64,000 nt of DNA, taken from the IMG/VR virus record IMGVR_UViG_3300036859_000232, positions 1-64,000 of that record; one strand, written 5' to 3'. The first letter of the stretch is position 1. Each line of letters opens with the position of its first letter. This document shows positions 373 through 64,000 of this stretch, piece after piece. The notes under the pieces were generated by a model. The model was not told the origin of the DNA, searched no databases, and saw only the letters and a list, made by a program, of their open reading frames with translations. Origin of the DNA: a virus. The translations under genes were made by a program, and so were the position numbers.

Positions 373-987
373 CTAAGAAGCCGTGATCGTGACGGTGAGC
401 TGCCAGACCTGGCCTGAGACCTTTGTGCCCTGGTTGGAGACGAAGCGATCGAGCATCGTGTCGCCCGACGCGGCGTTGAAGATCGCGAACTCCTGCCATG
501 AATAGTTCGCGTCGGAAGATGCATACGTCGACCTCACGATGAACTGCCGGTCGGTCGCGGACTGTTCACCCTGGATTGCGGGATAGGACGTATCCATCGC
601 CTTGCGGAGCTTATTCGTCGCCGCCTGGAGATCGGTCTGCCCAACGGCCGCAGCAGTCGACGAATCGCCAACACCGAGTTTTGTGTTCGCATTATTGAAG
701 AGAACCGTGGTGTCAGAATTGCCACCAGATGCAGCCGACGATTCACGAATGCGCTTCCAGATATAGTTGCCACCGATGTTGACGAGTAACCCCTCGGCCA
801 ACGTCGCATAACCGAACCGCGAGACATCAAACGGCCGTCCTGTGCGCATTGCCTCTTCGTCGTCGAAGCGACAAATTTCAGCAGCGACAGCAGCCTTGAA
901 CCAGTCGTGTGACCCCTTGAACTTCGGATCGTAACGTGCTACTACGATCCCTTCTTTCGCTTTGGTGGGTTCGTGGAGTTGCCTCAT
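373..987 (-). CDS. Virion structural protein with fibre-like C-terminus
   Basis: 204 residues, ATG at 987. The C-terminal part (WQEFAIFNAASGDTML, then an alternating hydrophobic stretch ending LTVTITAS) resembles a beta-rich module I have seen in phage virion and fibre proteins. The middle is Ser/Thr/Ala-rich. It lies in the head operon downstream of the capsid gene, between two unidentified virion-module genes. A decoration or minor capsid protein is the best guess; the exact function is unknown. Confidence 0.7.
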   Translation of the reverse strand: MRQLHEPTKAKEGIVVARYDPKFKGSHDWFKAAVAAEICRFDDEEAMRTGRPFDVSRFGYATLAEGLLVNIGGNYIWKRIRESSAASGGNSDTTVLFNNANTKLGVGDSSTAAAVGQTDLQAATNKLRKAMDTSYPAIQGEQSATDRQFIVRSTYASSDANYSWQEFAIFNAASGDTMLDRFVSNQGTKVSGQVWQLTVTITAS

Positions 988-39256: not shown

Positions 39257-39427
39257 ATGGCGACTGAGCGGTTAGTTGTACCTGAAGAACATCTCGCCGA
39301 AGTCATTCGCGTTATTCGAACCGGAGTTCACCACACTCGTCCGCTGAAACGGGAAGTTCGTCTGGAATTACTGCGGTGGTGTGATGACGAGGAACAGTAT
39401 CTTCGGGACCTCGAAGAAGATGACTGA
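39257..39427 (+). CDS. Hypothetical small protein
   Basis: 56 residues from the ATG at 39257. Helical and acidic (VPEEHLAEVIRVIRTG, DDEEQYLRDLEEDD). Translation should be controlled by the leader hairpin. Overlaps the glycosylase gene by eight bases. Confidence 0.6.
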   Translation: MATERLVVPEEHLAEVIRVIRTGVHHTRPLKREVRLELLRWCDDEEQYLRDLEEDD

Positions 39428-41057
39428 TCTCTCGGCTGTTCTCACCTTCCGCCAGCACCTTCGCGAATGCACGGCCTGTCCACTTCACGCACAATGCAAG
39501 GGTCCTGTCCCGTGGCGCGGTGACCTCAACCCCGAGTTCGCCGTCATGGGTGAGGCTCCCGGCAGGACTGAGGACGCGCGAAACGAACCGTTTGTCGGCG
39601 ACACAGGCAACATCCTCAACCACTGGCTGAAAATCAAGGGATTCGATCCGAAGGTGATGACCTACTTCAACGCGGTGCAGTGTTACCCGAAGCGTCTACA
39701 ACCGAAGCCCACCGCTGCGGAGATGAAGGCGTGTCGCGGATGGATGAACGGCCAACTGGAATTCATCCGGCCGAAGATCCTCATCACGCTGGGAGTGACA
39801 GCGTTCGAGTCGCTGATCGGCGGACGATGGCCGGAACTCAAACTCGTTCATGGGAAGCCTCTCATGCACCCGACATACGGCTGCTGGGTGTGGCCGTGTG
39901 TGGACGAGAAGACGAAGGCTCTTACCCCGCAAGGATGGAGAGGGTTCGAGGAACTTTCGGATGGAGATCTCATTGCAGTTGTGAACCCTCAGACGTTAAC
40001 GTCTTCTTGGGAGCCTGCATCCTTCCATGGATACGACTACCACGATGAGATGGTCGTGATCGACGCGCGGTCATCCTCGCAATGGCTCTCCCCGAACCAC
40101 CGTTGTCTCGTCCGTGATAGAGGGCAGAGACAATCAGTGATCGAGGCTTGGCAGCTAGATCCCCAACAAGCAAGACATGAGCTACCGATCCGTCATCAAC
40201 TCCTAGCCGAACCAAGTCGTTCAATCGGTCAGGACTGGGCTGCGCTCGTTGCCTGGTACATCACCGAGGGCAGCATCCCTCACCACACTGGGAGTTCGAT
40301 TCGTATCTACCAATCGTTGCGGACGGGACATGTTGAGACGATCAGGAAACTTCTCTACACAGTCGGGGCCACGTTCAAGGAACGTAATCCCCGCAGCGAC
40401 GAATACGTCTTCTCGGTAACCGGACGAGTGGCCGAGAGGCTTCGTGCGCTAGCCCCTGGTCGAACAATGACTTCCGCGATGGCGCATCTGCCATATTCCG
40501 AAGCTGACGCATTTCTCCAAGCTTTCATCGATGGTGATGGACATCGTTCTACTCGACGTAATCGTGAGGAACTTTCCATCATTCAGAAACCAGGACCAAC
40601 GGTTGACCAGCTTCAGATCCTCTTAGCGAGATTGGGCTGGAGGTCTATCGTTCGACCTCACGGCGACTGTGTGCGGATCGACATCAATGCGAAGTCCTGG
40701 TTCCAGCCTTACCCGCAGTCATTGGGAACAACGTCCTATCAAGGAACTATCTGGTGTCCTTCTACAAGCTCGGGATTCTGGGTGGCTCAACGCGACGGGT
40801 TCCCATTCATCACTGGTAATACCTACCACCCGTCCGCGTACTTGCGTGGGAGGAATAAGACCTACGAGACGAAGATCCTGAACGACCTCGAACGGTTGCG
40901 GATCTGGTGGACGAATCAAGAGGGTGGACTGGACATCTGTTACATCGCGAGTTGCGACCGACCGTTCTATCGGTATGACGACTGGGCGATCGGACTGTGT
41001 CAGCATCATGCACAACGACAGGGGAGCCTCTTCCCGGAAGACGTAGGAGCCAGATGA
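39420..41057 (+). CDS. Family-4-like uracil-DNA glycosylase interrupted by an intein
   Basis: 545-residue precursor, ATG at 39420. The exteins form a glycosylase of about 237 residues: Cys 17, 20, 87 and 104 have the spacing of the 4Fe-4S ligands, MGEAPGRTED (about 43-52) is the catalytic loop, and WP|TYHPSAYLR after splicing restores the conserved HPS motif. Residues 160-467 are an intein with a LAGLIDADG-like endonuclease. The enzyme would remove uracil from DNA. The insertion splits the active-site motif, so splicing is needed for activity. Confidence 0.85.
   Translation: MTDLSAVLTFRQHLRECTACPLHAQCKGPVPWRGDLNPEFAVMGEAPGRTEDARNEPFVGDTGNILNHWLKIKGFDPKVMTYFNAVQCYPKRLQPKPTAAEMKACRGWMNGQLEFIRPKILITLGVTAFESLIGGRWPELKLVHGKPLMHPTYGCWVWPCVDEKTKALTPQGWRGFEELSDGDLIAVVNPQTLTSSWEPASFHGYDYHDEMVVIDARSSSQWLSPNHRCLVRDRGQRQSVIEAWQLDPQQARHELPIRHQLLAEPSRSIGQDWAALVAWYITEGSIPHHTGSSIRIYQSLRTGHVETIRKLLYTVGATFKERNPRSDEYVFSVTGRVAERLRALAPGRTMTSAMAHLPYSEADAFLQAFIDGDGHRSTRRNREELSIIQKPGPTVDQLQILLARLGWRSIVRPHGDCVRIDINAKSWFQPYPQSLGTTSYQGTIWCPSTSSGFWVAQRDGFPFITGNTYHPSAYLRGRNKTYETKILNDLERLRIWWTNQEGGLDICYIASCDRPFYRYDDWAIGLCQHHAQRQGSLFPEDVGAR
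39897..40820 (+). mobile_element. Intein with LAGLIDADG homing endonuclease
   Basis: 308 residues in frame within the glycosylase. It starts at Cys1 (CVDEKTKALTPQGW), has block B WLSPNHRCLV and two LAGLIDADG-like helices (ALVAWYITEGS and AFLQAFIDGDG), then block F GFWVAQRDGFPFITGN, with Thr as +1 residue. The penultimate residue is Gly rather than the usual His. Codon use looks less GC-rich than the flanks, as expected for a recent arrival. Confidence 0.85.
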
Positions 41058-58054: not shown

Positions 58055-58584
58055 CACACCCCCGCCAACAGTTCCATCGCCATCCGGTCTGCCTCGTCCC
58101 ACTTCGGGTTCATGCGCTCAGTCCCTTGTTTGGCCTGAGCTAGCATCTTCGCGTTCGCAACCCACTCGTCCAACTGCTTCTCCAGGTTCGCACGTGATCC
58201 GGCTTCGTCCATCATCAGGGTATACGTCAGCGCATAGAACTCTCGCGCGGTCAGAGAGTCGAAGGTCCGGGTGCCATTGAGCAAGCGTCCCTCGACGAGG
58301 AGAAGATTCGATCTTCCCCATTCCCAGACGTAAACCGCGTGTTCGATATCCCTTTCACAGATGACCTCGATGAGCCAGTTCGACAGGTCGGTGAGTTGCT
58401 CGACGGTGATGTAGACATTCCCGTCCTCCAACATCGGCCGCATGACGTCAGGCTCGGTCACGCACGAACAGACGAGGTCGATGAAGTCCGGAATGGTCGA
58501 AGCGAACAGAAACGGGCCGAGGGGCGCATCGAGCCTAACTTCCCACCAGCGTCTTCCGAGCTTGAAGGTATGTGTCTGATTCAC
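58054..58584 (-). CDS. Second tail-chaperone-like protein
   Basis: 176 residues, GTG at 58584 (GTGA overlap). TFKLGRRWWEVRLDAPLGPF, then QLTDLSNWLIEVICERDIEH, parallels the protein at 57106 (same order of motifs). Likely an old duplication. Confidence 0.55.
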   Translation of the reverse strand: MNQTHTFKLGRRWWEVRLDAPLGPFLFASTIPDFIDLVCSCVTEPDVMRPMLEDGNVYITVEQLTDLSNWLIEVICERDIEHAVYVWEWGRSNLLLVEGRLLNGTRTFDSLTAREFYALTYTLMMDEAGSRANLEKQLDEWVANAKMLAQAKQGTERMNPKWDEADRMAMELLAGV

Positions 58585-59093
58585 ACCACGGTAACCGCAA
58601 GCTGTACGACCACTCCTCCGACCCCGCCCTGAGGTCCGATGGGAGTCGTGGAGATGATGGCGACGGCATTGCGATCCTTATAGGCGGGGAGGAGTTTGTC
58701 AGCATTGGCGAGATCGACGATGGCCGCGCAGATAGTCATAGCCTCATCGAGGATCGACTCTCCCTTCGCCTGGAGTTCATTCGCGCTCGGAGGGGAACCA
58801 CCCGTCTTGATGGTCGGCACGCATCTCAGCAACGCGATAGCAAAGGTGTGATTGAGGGGCATGGAACATCGGATGGGGATGGGTTGTCCTTGGAAACTGG
58901 AGCCAAGGTCCCCTTGTGACGATCCGGTCCACGACACGATGAACGTATCGACGCATTTCTGCCCAACGAAATCGTGAGCAATGAGTCCGGCATGGATGTA
59001 CTGGCGCAATGGGATGTCGACGCCATCCGTTGCGAGACGAGTGGTGAGATTGTCGAGGATCGTTTGCGCGATATCGACGAGGCGTCCATCCAT
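58581..59093 (-). CDS. Tail terminator / connector-like protein
   Basis: 170 residues, ATG at 59093 (TGATG overlap). VDIAQTILDNLTTRLATDG at the start and a strand-rich C-terminus are like small tail-terminator proteins that cap the tail tube. Function by position and size only. Confidence 0.5.
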   Translation of the reverse strand: MDGRLVDIAQTILDNLTTRLATDGVDIPLRQYIHAGLIAHDFVGQKCVDTFIVSWTGSSQGDLGSSFQGQPIPIRCSMPLNHTFAIALLRCVPTIKTGGSPPSANELQAKGESILDEAMTICAAIVDLANADKLLPAYKDRNAVAIISTTPIGPQGGVGGVVVQLAVTVV

Positions 59094-60091
59094 CAGCGGC
59101 TCTCCATGAAGTCAACCACCGCGTTCACCGCACGTTCAGTTGCTTTGCCGTCACACAAGTCACCATAGGCGTAGTCGACGGCTTCAGCACGCAACTCCCT
59201 CGCGCGCGGAAGGTCTTCGAGGGCTTCGAGGATACCGTCATAGAGGAACTCGGGCTCATCGACCGTGATGCCAGGGATGTGTGACCAGAACCTCATCCCG
59301 TGTTCGACGTTCCTGCGATACCACGGTGCATTCAAAACAAGGACGGGCCGACCGGTGGAGGCGAACTCATACAACGTCGAGGAGTTGTCACAGACGTACA
59401 GATCAGTTTCTTCCATGACGTCCCACCACGACTCCACGAACGGCACCTTCCTCCGCGCCCAGAACGTCCGAAAGTGCGAGTACATCCGCGGGTGACAATG
59501 ACCGATGATGTCGAATGGACGATCCTCGCGACGGATGATGTTCGTAAGTTCAGTCTCATAATGGGGAAATGCCCACTGGGTCTCAGCAACGACCTGGATG
59601 TCCGCGTGGAACGAAAAGGCGACGGTGTTTACCGGTTCAGATAAGGCAAGTGGTGGAGGGCCGACATGAAACCCATCGAGATATGGAACACCGATCGCAA
59701 CAGCCTGTTGTCCCGATGCTCTACACAGATCCGCATCACGTTCTGACGGACATAGGTTGAGAACGACCCGCTCACGCCCCGCACCACCTGAGTAACCAGA
59801 GTGATGTAGTCCACGACCATCAGAGTATGTCTGTCCGACCCCGTGGTTGACGAGGATGACCTTCGCCGGATTGACCGATCGATAGTCCGGTTGTGACGCC
59901 ACGCACACGAGTGACCGTTCATCCTGTGGCACGGAGCGTTTGATGACATCGATACCCAGCTCTTGCGCTCGATCGGCGGCTCGGCCTCTTGCGTAGAAGA
60001 TACCGCGGTACTTGGTCGGGAGGTTGTCATACAAGTGGAAGAGATGCTCGACGAGATGCTTGCCAGTGGCGTAAAAGGCGATGGTGGTCAT
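59093..60091 (-). CDS. GT-B glycosyltransferase (CDP-glycerol transferase-like)
   Basis: 332 residues from the ATG at 60091 (ATGA overlap). DNSSTLYEFASTGRPVLVLN fits the donor-binding region of CDP-glycerol glycerophosphotransferases (TagF/TagB) and related GT-B enzymes; GHCHPRMYSHF and LVNHGVGQTYSDGRG fit substrate loops. It could add glycerol-phosphate or a sugar to a virion protein or the host wall. Last of five glycosyltransferase genes. Confidence 0.65.
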   Translation of the reverse strand: MTTIAFYATGKHLVEHLFHLYDNLPTKYRGIFYARGRAADRAQELGIDVIKRSVPQDERSLVCVASQPDYRSVNPAKVILVNHGVGQTYSDGRGLHHSGYSGGAGRERVVLNLCPSERDADLCRASGQQAVAIGVPYLDGFHVGPPPLALSEPVNTVAFSFHADIQVVAETQWAFPHYETELTNIIRREDRPFDIIGHCHPRMYSHFRTFWARRKVPFVESWWDVMEETDLYVCDNSSTLYEFASTGRPVLVLNAPWYRRNVEHGMRFWSHIPGITVDEPEFLYDGILEALEDLPRARELRAEAVDYAYGDLCDGKATERAVNAVVDFMESR

Positions 60092-60903
60092 AGCGACACC
60101 AGGCACGGGTCGTCTATGAGAAGCGGATCGGTGGAGGGATCAGGTGAGTAGAACCACGTGTGGAAGATCTCGTCGATGGCGTCGATACCCTTGTCCTCCA
60201 GGAACCGTCCGTAGTCGCGCCAGTGCTGCCCCGCACCGGCAGGAACGCGATCACCGGCTGCGGCGTAGGCGGCAGCACCGTTACGGGCTTTGCGGGCCAT
60301 CTGATCGACGGAACGGTATGGGTAGTGGTGGATCTCGATGGGTGAGTCGGTTTGTGTGCCGACCATGCCGGGATAGCGAACGCCGTGATTGCCCATCTCA
60401 ATCTGGAAGCCGGGGAGTGGACGGAACGCGACCTTCGGCAAGGGAGCAGCGAGTGTACGTTTCCAGCGGATGCGTTTGATGGGATCGTCGATGGTCTCGT
60501 CGTCTTCGGATGTGACGACATGGTCGTAAAGAATCGCGAACTCGACGTGCCAGTCAATACCCTCACCGAGGTACTCCCTGAACGGTGCGCCGTAGTCCTC
60601 CATCCACACCCAGACCTCGTCGGCATCGAAAGGAACGATCCAGTCTGCGTCGTAATCGTCACGCGCCATCTCGGCGAGGGCGGTCATCTTCTGTGATTGG
60701 AGGTACGCCGGTTCATAGTCCGGAACGAGCGTCAGCCACGGTGCGTTGATGGACTCTTGTTCGAGGAGGTATCCGAGCGTTCCGTCAGTCGAGCAATTGT
60801 CCGCGATGATGACGTGGTCGAGTTGACGCAACATCCGCGGCAGAGTGTACGGCAGGATGTCCATCTCGTCCTTGCACATGCACACGCCGACAACTCGCGT
60901 CAT
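60088..60903 (-). CDS. Glycosyltransferase family 2-like
   Basis: 271 residues from the ATG at 60903 (TGATG overlap). VCMCKDEMDILPYTLPRMLR, then HVIIADNCSTDGT, and the metal motif VPFDADEVW are clear GT-A features (DxD at DADE). His-rich C-terminal half (EIHHYPYRSVDQMARK). Donor and acceptor unknown. Confidence 0.75.
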   Translation of the reverse strand: MTRVVGVCMCKDEMDILPYTLPRMLRQLDHVIIADNCSTDGTLGYLLEQESINAPWLTLVPDYEPAYLQSQKMTALAEMARDDYDADWIVPFDADEVWVWMEDYGAPFREYLGEGIDWHVEFAILYDHVVTSEDDETIDDPIKRIRWKRTLAAPLPKVAFRPLPGFQIEMGNHGVRYPGMVGTQTDSPIEIHHYPYRSVDQMARKARNGAAAYAAAGDRVPAGAGQHWRDYGRFLEDKGIDAIDEIFHTWFYSPDPSTDPLLIDDPCLVSL

Positions 60904-61562
60904 CAGTAACCACTCCCGATGCGTTGCGCGCCGATGTGGTGAACCCATTCGGCTGAGTCTCGTGGTCCCCAATACGCAGCCCGGAGTAGCGGGTCAGAGA
61001 ACAACGCGTCACTGAACACGTGCTCGGAACGTGGTCCTGTCGGCCAGCCGGTACGAGTCAGGACTCGCCGATACAGCGACGGATTGGTAGTGAAATGTAG
61101 CCGGTGTTCAAGCCACTGATAACCGTTCCACTCACAGTCCTTGTATTCGTCCGGCCACATCTCGACGATCCCGCCAGCCTTCTCCTCGGCTTCATTCCAG
61201 GACTGACGGCGTAACGCGAGTTGAACGACATGAGGGCGATGTTCGAGGACTTCGATCATCGGTCGGAGGTTCAGTGGCCAGTTGAAGACGAAGTCGTCCT
61301 CCAAGTGGAAGACGTAGTCCTCATCGGCGTGTTTGACGATGCCCCATGCGCGGTTGATGGCGCTGCCGAACCCTCCGCGCGATCCTCCACAGACCTCGAA
61401 GTCGGGGTAGCGACGAATGAGTTCCGATACATGCTGCGAGTCGCGGTCGGTGTGGATGATGGCTCGCGTGATGTTGCCGATGAGGTTGTCTTCCGCGGAC
61501 GAGATAGTGCGTTCGAGGAGTTCATCGCGACCGTCCGTCATCACGAGTAGCAGCACACTCAT
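60903..61562 (-). CDS. Glycosyltransferase, GT-A fold
   Basis: 219 residues from the ATG at 61562 (ATGA overlap). LLLVMTDGRDELLERTISSA at the N-terminus and VFHLEDDFVF (EDD metal site) are typical; later GTGWPTGPRSEH-like loop. Works in the cytoplasm on a nucleotide sugar; target unknown. Confidence 0.7.
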   Translation of the reverse strand: MSVLLLVMTDGRDELLERTISSAEDNLIGNITRAIIHTDRDSQHVSELIRRYPDFEVCGGSRGGFGSAINRAWGIVKHADEDYVFHLEDDFVFNWPLNLRPMIEVLEHRPHVVQLALRRQSWNEAEEKAGGIVEMWPDEYKDCEWNGYQWLEHRLHFTTNPSLYRRVLTRTGWPTGPRSEHVFSDALFSDPLLRAAYWGPRDSAEWVHHIGAQRIGSGY

Positions 61563-62188
61563 GTCGTCACCCCCGCTACCTGTTGACTCTTCCACTTCTC
61601 GAAGTCCTTGAGGATACGTTCGCGAAGACCTTCCTTGTCCGCGATCGTGTTGTTGCGACCATCCGCTCGCCAGTGCGCGCGATAGATGGCCTTCGGGACA
61701 CGGATGACGCGGTTGCGGAGATGAAGGATACGGAGGAACAACGCCCAGTCCTCGTATGCCTCCCATTGCTCCTGAAATCCACCGACCTGATCGAAGAGTT
61801 CACTGCGGATAGGCGATCCGATGACGAGGTAGTTCCCGCGTTCAAGCGGTCTGATCGTGAACAGTTTCGGTCGAGGTTCGGGATCCTCGGGCGTGATGAA
61901 CTGAACAGCAGGATTGAGAACAGCGGCAGACGTGATGGACGAGCGGGCCATATAACGGAGGAAGTCCGGCGCGAGTTCATCGTCGGCATCGAGGAACATG
62001 AGCCACTTGGCCTTCTTCGCCTGATTGGCAGCGGTGTTGCGAGCCTCGGCTAGGGTGCGTCCGTGGTAGTGAACGATGTCGAGTGGCTGGACGGATTGAC
62101 GTTCGACGGATGGGATGGCACGTGACTTCGCCAGGTTGACCCATGACTTGTCACCGTATGTCGCGACGATGATGGACATGTCTACCAT
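61559..62188 (-). CDS. Glycosyltransferase family 2
   Basis: 209 residues from the ATG at 62188 with AAAGGG upstream; an ATG at 62179 is possible. MSIIVATYGDKSWVNLAKSR, then AEARNTAANQAKKAKWLMFL and DADDEL, is a standard GT2 start, with DxD in LDADDE. GGFQEQWEAYEDWALFLRIL marks the acceptor side. Strong call. Confidence 0.85.
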   Translation of the reverse strand: MVDMSIIVATYGDKSWVNLAKSRAIPSVERQSVQPLDIVHYHGRTLAEARNTAANQAKKAKWLMFLDADDELAPDFLRYMARSSITSAAVLNPAVQFITPEDPEPRPKLFTIRPLERGNYLVIGSPIRSELFDQVGGFQEQWEAYEDWALFLRILHLRNRVIRVPKAIYRAHWRADGRNNTIADKEGLRERILKDFEKWKSQQVAGVTT

Positions 62189-62682
62189 CGCGCACCCTTT
62201 GAAGAATTGCATCGCATGTGGGCTGTTTGCAAGTTCGCGGCATCATCAGTTCCACCAAGGATTACAGGAATGATGTGATCTACAGTTGGAGCAAGCGGGT
62301 GTGGATACGTCTTGATTCGCTGGCTCACCGGTTTCTTACATATCTGGCACATCCATTCATCACGTTGAAAAATCTCACGACGTCGAATCCTGTAACGACG
62401 TGCGCGACGTTTGTCCCTTGCTCGATTGCGACATAAGGGCGAACAATAACGACTCTTGTATCCCCAGGGTCGGAAACGTGTCGAGCAAACCTCACAAATC
62501 ATCTCATCGGGAATAGCGTGACGCCCCTCATACAAGCGAAGTCCCGCTCGCCGCTTGATGGTTTCTCGTTCCTTCGCGGCAACACGAGTGCATCTAATAG
62601 AGCATCGCTTTTGCCCATTAGCCCAAGGCGTGAACCACTTACGACATTGAGGACAACGAAGTTTCTTCGTCTTCACGCCCAT
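62182..62682 (-). CDS. HNH endonuclease with zinc ribbons
   Basis: 166 residues, ATG at 62682. RCPQCRKWFTPWANGQKRCS and CEVCSTRFRPWGYKSRYCSP are two zinc ribbons; the core FQRDEWMCQICKKPV, TVDHIIPVILGGTDDAANLQ, MRCNSSKG is a full HNH site (DHI...N...H). A mobile endonuclease inserted in the glycosyltransferase cassette, overlapping both neighbours. Less GC-rich than the flanks. Confidence 0.85.
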   Translation of the reverse strand: MGVKTKKLRCPQCRKWFTPWANGQKRCSIRCTRVAAKERETIKRRAGLRLYEGRHAIPDEMICEVCSTRFRPWGYKSRYCSPLCRNRARDKRRARRYRIRRREIFQRDEWMCQICKKPVSQRIKTYPHPLAPTVDHIIPVILGGTDDAANLQTAHMRCNSSKGARW

Positions 62683-63359
62683 AGTCGTCTCCGCTGTGCG
62701 AACAATGCTCGATCCTGACGCACTCGTTTGAACCCTTGAAGATACGTACTGTCAATCTTCCCCTTCGGTTTTCCCTTCGAGTCGTACAGGTGAGGATGGA
62801 AGTGTTCTACGTGGGAATCCTCAGCAAAGGCCCAAGCGTTGCGTGCCTTAGCTGTAGCAACCAATTCGTCGTCGACGTAGAGATGGTGGTACCTCTCGCA
62901 GAGAATCGCATCCAGCCGGTCAATGGTTCCCAACTCACGCGCGTACGTTCGACGCACTAACGAATGTGTGGCATGGATCCCTTTGAGTGTCCTCGGGTTA
63001 CCGAGGTCGTTCGTACCCACAACGCCGATGGACTCGTCTGCCATCTTGTCGAGTGCCGCGACATCCCATTCGTGATGGAAGTTGAGGTCGTCGGCTCCGG
63101 TGAAGACGAAGGGCTCGGTGGTCTTGCGATAGCCCTCATTGGTCTTGGCCGCGTAGTCCCCTGGACCAGCCGGTTTCATACGGACGATGTAGTCGGCATC
63201 CGCGGCATCGAGAGCCTCTAGTTCGTCTCGCTGGTTCTCCGTCGCGATGAACAGAAGGCGATACGGGACCTGCGTGTTCTCGCGGATGTTCTCGATGAGC
63301 GGACGAACGCGGTGCGGACGATTCAGCACCGGCACGAGGATGACGATCGAAGTCGTCAT
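62673..63359 (-). CDS. Glycosyltransferase, GT-A fold
   Basis: 228 residues, ATG at 63359. SIVILVPVLNRPHRVRPLIE, FVFTGADDLNFH (ADD metal site) and VDDELVATAKARNAWAFAED fit a GT-A sugar transferase. First of the glycosyltransferase genes, after a strong hairpin. Confidence 0.75.
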   Translation of the reverse strand: MTTSIVILVPVLNRPHRVRPLIENIRENTQVPYRLLFIATENQRDELEALDAADADYIVRMKPAGPGDYAAKTNEGYRKTTEPFVFTGADDLNFHHEWDVAALDKMADESIGVVGTNDLGNPRTLKGIHATHSLVRRTYARELGTIDRLDAILCERYHHLYVDDELVATAKARNAWAFAEDSHVEHFHPHLYDSKGKPKGKIDSTYLQGFKRVRQDRALFAQRRRLWA

Positions 63360-63371
63360 CTACTCACCAAA

Positions 63372-63427
63372 GAAGACGGGCACTCCCCGTTCGGTCGCGC
63401 GACCATGCACGGAGAGTACCCGTCTTC
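63372..63427 (-). terminator. Long hairpin after the major tail gene
   Basis: Arms GAAGACGGGCACTCCCC and GGAGAGTACCCGTCTTC pair over about 16 positions with one mismatch and a bulge. Downstream of the tail tube stop on the minus strand. It would limit read-through from the abundant tail message into the glycosyltransferases. Confidence 0.65.
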
Positions 63428-63453
63428 GATGAAGAACGCTAGTGACTCGTGAC

Positions 63454-64000
63454 CTACGAGGCGATGAGTTCCTGAGCCCCACACTGCGGCTCCGGTAGGT
63501 CCGTGTCTCCCGCCCATGCGTAGAGGGACCCACACTCGTCCTCGGCAGGCCAATTCCAGTCATTTGCTGGTCCGTCGAGGAAGTTCTCGTTCTCGTACCC
63601 GACGCCCGTGAAAGCGTTGGTGATCGGGTTGTTCTCCAAGGACTTGTCCGAGGGCGTCCACCGCGTCTTGCCGAAGACGTGACGAACATACGGATAGGTC
63701 ATCGAGATTCCGGACCCCTCACCATTGAGGGTCCAGCCCTCCATTGCGACCCCCAGTTCATTTCCTGCTGTGCCGACCCGCGGCAAAGCGACACCAAGCG
63801 TCTCCCCGTCGAGGGTGAGCAGGGTCCCGCCAACGAGGAGTTTCTGTGCCTCGGGATCATGGTCGCAGAAGACCAATCCAAACGTGAGGTTCTTGTACTT
63901 GTCCGGATCGAGGAACGCGAAGCACACGTCTCCCGAGCCGTCCTTCTGCGTGAAGTCGTCGCCCGCCTCGATGTTGTATCCGATCGCAAGCGAGACGTTC
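63454..64000 (-). CDS. Major tail (tube) protein, partial
   Basis: The frame is open to the right edge (182 codons visible, no start). YKNLTFGLVFCDHDPEAQKL, GWTLNGEGSGISMTYPYVRH and FTGVGYENENFLDGPANDWN match the actinobacteriophage major tail protein, especially the FxGxGxxN...NDW region. It builds the tail tube. The strong hairpin after its stop fits a highly expressed gene. Confidence 0.75.
   Translation of the reverse strand, partial: NVSLAIGYNIEAGDDFTQKDGSGDVCFAFLDPDKYKNLTFGLVFCDHDPEAQKLLVGGTLLTLDGETLGVALPRVGTAGNELGVAMEGWTLNGEGSGISMTYPYVRHVFGKTRWTPSDKSLENNPITNAFTGVGYENENFLDGPANDWNWPAEDECGSLYAWAGDTDLPEPQCGAQELIAS

Follow-up and report, generated by a model that had tools for sequence, protein, structure and literature searches.

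What do five glycosyltransferases act upon when their genes lie in the middle of a phage tail operon? The window analyzed here, a stretch of 64,000 nt that is part of a 67,407-base IMG/VR record, contains such a cassette; the record has no DNA similarity to known phages. The capsid and tail-tube subunits of Mycobacterium phages are reported to bear glycans at their C-termini (PMC12619734 and PMC10955285, both citing Freeman et al. 2023, Cell Host Microbe, PMC10527164). From comparison of gene content, gene order, and protein C-termini, we consider it likely that the cassette is a virion O-glycosylation module, with the serine at the end of the tail-tube protein as its likeliest acceptor.

Organization of the Locus

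The main features of the locus are listed in Table 1. The coordinates of the glycosyltransferase (GT) genes are those of the best start codons.

Table 1. Features of the glycosyltransferase locus and of a candidate second acceptor
Feature	Position in the window	Strand	Family or evidence
Tail-tube (major tail) protein gene	63454..64000 (to 64107 in the full record)	minus	PHROG 792 'major tail protein'
Strong terminator-like hairpin 3' of the tail-tube gene	63370..63432	minus	folding z -5.2
GT1, GT-A glycosyltransferase	62673..63359	minus	PF00535
HNH endonuclease gene, probably inserted between GT1 and GT2	62182..62682	minus	PF01844, E 2.5e-11
GT2, GT-A	61559..62188	minus	PF10111/PF00535
GT3, GT-A	60903..61562	minus	PF00535; PHROG 3047 galactosyl transferase
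GT4, GT-A	60088..60903	minus	PF13704
GT5, GT-B, CDP-glycerol glycerophosphotransferase-like	59093..60091	minus	PF04464
p170, tail gene bordering the GT slot downstream in this lineage	58581..59093	minus	PHROG 810
Head-operon protein, possible second acceptor	373..987	minus	PHROG 23653; C-terminus ...TITAS

On the minus strand, the tail-tube gene is followed by the hairpin, GT1, the HNH endonuclease gene, GT2, GT3, GT4, GT5, and p170, and then by p176, p175, p136, and the gene encoding a 1015-aa tape measure protein. The gene calls and PHROG matches agree with the original prediction that the cassette sits between the tail-tube and tail-assembly genes, and the Pfam families, all matched above their curated cut-offs, bear out the assignment of four enzymes to the GT-A type and one to the GT-B type of CDP-glycerol family. 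The five genes had also been described as overlapping each other, which holds for GT2 to GT5 (overlaps of 4, 1, and 4 nt) but not for GT1 and GT2, which are parted by an HNH gene that had been overlooked. GT5 overlaps the next tail gene by 1 nt, and since overlaps of 1-10 nt run throughout the cassette and on into the tail genes, all these genes probably form one translationally coupled late operon. The cassette is indeed a large investment, as had been remarked, but not an unusual one, since phage GX15bay and other contigs have equal or larger numbers of GTs.

The composition of the GT genes matches that of the genome, whereas the HNH gene deviates from it (GC3 of 0.46 vs 0.64-0.74 in the GT genes). 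It is a probable insertion, as in several relatives the last 4 nt of GT1 are shared with GT2. Elsewhere in the window (39384-41057), a single open reading frame joins uracil-DNA glycosylase (PF03167) and LAGLIDADG (PF14528) domains, and is possibly an intein or a homing insertion.

The strong hairpin reported between the tail-tube gene and the cassette was recovered as a 19-bp stem (-51.7 kcal/mol; none of 200 shuffled sequences was equally stable) with a short T-rich tail directly after it. The gene upstream of GT1 is assigned to the tail tube with moderate confidence. The structure model of its relative from contig L013 has a low pLDDT of 58; the 50 best VIA-aligned entries for it are mostly tube proteins of phages and injection systems (best Z 6.5), and the Foldseek matches of this low-confidence model are weak (best E 0.029). 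In most relatives the tail-tube gene has the capsid genes on one side and the head-tail adaptor on the other, whereas in this phage the adaptor comes first, followed by an HNH gene and then the tail tube. This second HNH endonuclease gene (L002:6175-6801) overlaps the adaptor stop codon and immediately precedes the tail-tube gene. The start of the latter (L002:6106-6108) is devoid of ATG, GTG, or TTG; AAGGAGG is located 5 nt before an ATC codon, which suggests that translation begins at ATC or that the sequence contains an error. Beside the adaptor, there is a gene for a 478-aa protein with 24% Ser/Thr and LTDS-like repeats (L002:7784-9220).

The Individual Glycosyltransferases

The acidic catalytic motifs are conserved across the relatives of GT1-GT4. 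For GT1, whose relatives retain the ADD and VDDE motifs, tblastn searches of the public phage collection (E <= 0.01) yielded no relative, whereas IMG/VR contains many. In GT2, an LDADDEL-type motif and an ED pair are invariant in 11 relatives. Relatives of GT3 were found in GX15bay, Gordonia phage Neville, and Mycobacterium phages. For GT4, the closest solved structure by sequence, at a weak E-value of 8e-4, is GmaR, the flagellin O-GlcNAc transferase of Listeria.

GT5, of about 332 residues, matches PF04464 with 34.7 bits (cut-off 22.1) over residues 183-331 only. Its structure model (pLDDT 85) has a GT-B fold like that of the teichoic acid polymerases TarL and TagF (E 5.5e-10, TMq 0.59), and UDP-GlcNAc 2-epimerases match it equally well. 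With regard to the donor, the sequence favors polyol-phosphate transferases, while the fold does not decide. Single-sequence scans yielded no close relatives of GT5 or of the tape measure protein. None of the five GTs has a hydrophobic segment (no hydrophobic 19-mer above 0.9).

The GT1-GT4 Module in Other Phages

Contigs with the module were collected by profile scans of IMG/VR, which yielded dozens of contigs, and then by tblastn searches for GT1-GT4. Contigs that have at least two of these genes all share the order GT1-GT2-GT3-GT4 and the strand: all four are present in 19 contigs, GT1-GT2 in 13, and GT2-GT3-GT4 in six, with no contig having another order. Wherever flanking structural genes could be recognized (in contigs other than, for instance, L113, L116, and L151), the module is enclosed by them or adjoins them. 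In one arrangement, the portal, VG15-like, scaffold, and coat genes (the coat being of the HK97 type, PF05065, or of the P22 type) are followed by GT1-GT4, a further GT, the PF25681 tail tube, and the tape measure gene. In the other, the terminase gene terL precedes GT1, GT2, further GT and epimerase genes, the portal, and the capsid. A prophage-like contig of Parafrankia soli NRRL B-16219 (L158:5515-13775) carries the portal, a P22-type coat, GT1-GT4, and a further GT in the same order. Relatives of GT5 also occur in structural operons where their neighbors are readable (L004, L093, L095, L097, L100, and L102). Judged by its gene order, GT1-GT2-GT3-GT4 is a conserved module.

The GT Slot within the Lineage

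The distance between the adaptor gene and the p170 homolog is 262-877 bp in 49 of the 51 measurable loci, that is, the slot is empty. The slot of Gordonia phage Phendrix spans 2.7 kb and holds two GTs; those of Gordonia phages GMA2 and Sixama contain GTs as well. In contig L102, the p170-like gene is preceded by several GTs, an FkbM methyltransferase, an HNH gene, and a relative of GT5. Since the slot is empty in most loci and is filled with different GTs in the Gordonia phages and in L102, its GT content is exchangeable.

The idea that the slot is specific for GTs was rejected, since in L014 it is 5.2 kb long and contains collagen-repeat genes instead, and that of L013 also carries an insertion. 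The L014 proteins (L014:15529-19580, on a 206-kb contig) contain PF01391 collagen repeats.

A C-Terminal Ala/Gly-Ser Motif

While inspecting the module-bearing contigs by eye, we observed that nearly all their coat and tail-tube proteins end in Ala-Ser or Gly-Ser, and tested this motif afterwards. Among the PHROG 792 tail tubes, eight of which (alignment A1) had been looked at before the test, the motif is present in five of five proteins with GTs in the slot vs none of 84 without (p 2.4e-8, or 9e-6 if the Gordonia trio is counted once; the rows are related sequences, so these and the following p-values overstate independence). A looser rule, requiring only a terminal Ser or Thr, was rejected, as it is true of 48 of 88 tail-tube relatives. 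In a fresh scan of PF05065 capsids, the motif terminates 11 of 12 proteins from contigs with detected GT1-5 and four of 46 from contigs without (p 6.6e-8; 9/10 and p 9e-7 after removal of the two seed contigs). The twelfth GT-bearing capsid ends in -SS, and among the four exceptions without GT1-5, a PF00534 GT is encoded on the L210 contig, while two others, L185 and L242, are fragments shorter than 7 kb. Thus, in two unrelated protein families, one of tail tubes and one of capsids, the final two residues co-vary with the presence of the cassette. Because of this correlation, the last serine is the likely point of sugar attachment.

In individual phages, the motif is confined to few proteins. 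In Che8, reportedly among the mycobacteriophages tested for virion glycans, it ends the capsid (...NKTGS) and the tail tube (...SDGS) and none of the 11 other proteins among the 13 read. In Rctr41k, which has a relative of GT5, it occurs in the capsid and tail tube only (of ten proteins), and in Neville, which has a relative of GT3, in the tail tube only (of 19 proteins), the capsid ending in ...PDPS. In Phendrix and Sixama, the motif is found on the capsid, the adjacent head protein, the tail tube, and the adaptor, and in GMA2, on the first three of these. The Parafrankia coat ends in ...TAGS, and that of a Dehalococcoidia MAG in ...GGS. The proteins of TM4 and Bxb1, which presumably lack such GTs, are without the motif. 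It is also absent from the Myrna proteins read, although the capsid gene may lie outside the stretch read. In the phage studied here, the motif-bearing late proteins are the tail tube (...QELIAS) and the head-operon protein of Table 1, whereas the capsid lacks it (...NDY).

Alternatively, the module could glycosylate virions at another protein or site, the Ala/Gly-Ser ending reflecting inheritance or composition. This agrees with the kinship of the sequences, which inflates the counts, with several capsids devoid of the strict motif, and with the terL-GT1-GT2 lineage, most of which deviates from the rule: its tail tubes mostly end in -TS (nine of 11 end in Ser, one of 11 has the strict motif) and its capsids lack the motif. 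However, the motif recurs in unrelated families, namely PHROG 792 tail tubes, PF05065 and P22-type coats, PF25681 tail tubes, and the Che8 and Rctr41k proteins, and is absent from most of the remaining structural proteins of these phages. We thus regard inheritance or composition as an unlikely explanation, albeit the one to be taken most seriously among the alternatives.

Comparison with Known Systems

The closest parallel to the proposed virion glycosylation is that of the mycobacteriophages, in which phage GTs likewise occur and both Che8 proteins end in -GS. Here the proposed system, unlike that of the mycobacteriophages, comprises a conserved four-gene GT module and a TarL/TagF-like GT inside the tail operon. 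As the best reading by analogy, the cassette would be a multi-enzyme variant of mycobacteriophage virion glycosylation. The Gordonia phages GMA2, Phendrix, and Sixama share the slot with GTs (immediately upstream of the p170 homolog in GMA2 and Phendrix, as here) and the -GS ends of the tail tube and capsid, but their GTs are not close relatives of GT1-GT5. In the Caudovirales phage GX15bay (MK557849), colinear GT2-GT3-GT4 homologs are 40-44% identical, but the cluster lies upstream of the terminase, together with a methyltransferase and other GTs.

Another possible target is the host surface: by altering cell-wall or capsule glycans during infection, the GTs could, for example, prevent superinfection or keep released particles from readsorbing, the late operon only setting the timing. 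Serotype-changing phage GTs are known from the literature, and GT5 resembles polymerases of teichoic acid and capsule, namely TarL and TagF, in fold and in its C-terminal family match, and Cps3D; it has about 332 residues and no membrane segment. Unlike in the gtr serotype-conversion cassettes, a GtrA flippase (PF04138) is absent from the record and the five GTs are not membrane-bound; a nucleotide-sugar epimerase gene is likewise absent from it, and a host-surface role would leave the co-variation with coat and tail C-termini unexplained. We therefore find such a role improbable.

Glycosylation of phage DNA on modified bases, for which GTs of other phages are known from the literature, is more doubtful still, and we give it very little weight. 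In contrast to T4-type DNA glucosylation, no thymidylate synthase- or hydroxymethylase-like gene (PF00303) was found in the 67-kb and possibly incomplete record, and no base-modification gene was detected among the replication genes scanned; moreover, the cassette is grouped with structural rather than replication genes. On this point the original prediction, which had placed DNA modification behind a virion role, is upheld. The absence of epimerase, GtrA, and thymidylate synthase-type genes from the record, and of membrane segments from the GTs, speaks against serotype conversion and DNA glucosylation.

Proposed Function and Implications

Of the readings, glycosylation of the tail tube or capsid, as initially suggested, has the best support, which comes from synteny and from the correlation with the Ala/Gly-Ser ending. 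Escape from host recognition, the purpose named at the outset, would be a hypothetical benefit. The gene content, the operon layout, the conservation of the module, its usual site in structural operons, and the co-variation with the C-terminal residues are direct observations. The activity of the enzymes, their acceptor and sugar donors, the order in which sugars are added, and any gain for the phage are our inference. In this scheme, the module would be expressed together with the late structural genes, and soluble GT1-GT4, with GT5, would draw on nucleotide sugars of the host to assemble a short, O-linked glycan on a protein of the virion while still in the cytoplasm. The glycan would most likely be attached to the serine that ends the tail-tube protein (...IAS), with the head-operon protein (...TAS) as a possible second acceptor. 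GT5 may add, or cap the glycan with, a polyol-phosphate or another sugar. Because GT5 is similar to TarL and TagF, a wall-like decoration of the virion, also suggested at the outset, may be a product of the cassette.

More tentatively, and at somewhat less than even chances, the C-terminal [Ala/Gly]-Ser could be a portable virion glycosylation tag, which coat and tail-tube proteins of unrelated fold would gain along with exchangeable cassettes of GTs. GT1-GT4 would then be a widespread, largely uncharacterized module, and GT5-type enzymes may add polyol-phosphate to virions. To our knowledge, few examples of virion glycosylation have been described. If the virion-glycosylation reading is right, a GT cassette in a late operon combined with a coat or tail tube ending in Ala/Gly-Ser would predict both the glycosylated phages and the modified residue, and Parafrankia soli would provide a cultured starting point. 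Virion glycosylation would then be widespread among uncultured phages, and dozens of phage GT genes without an assigned function would acquire a candidate one.
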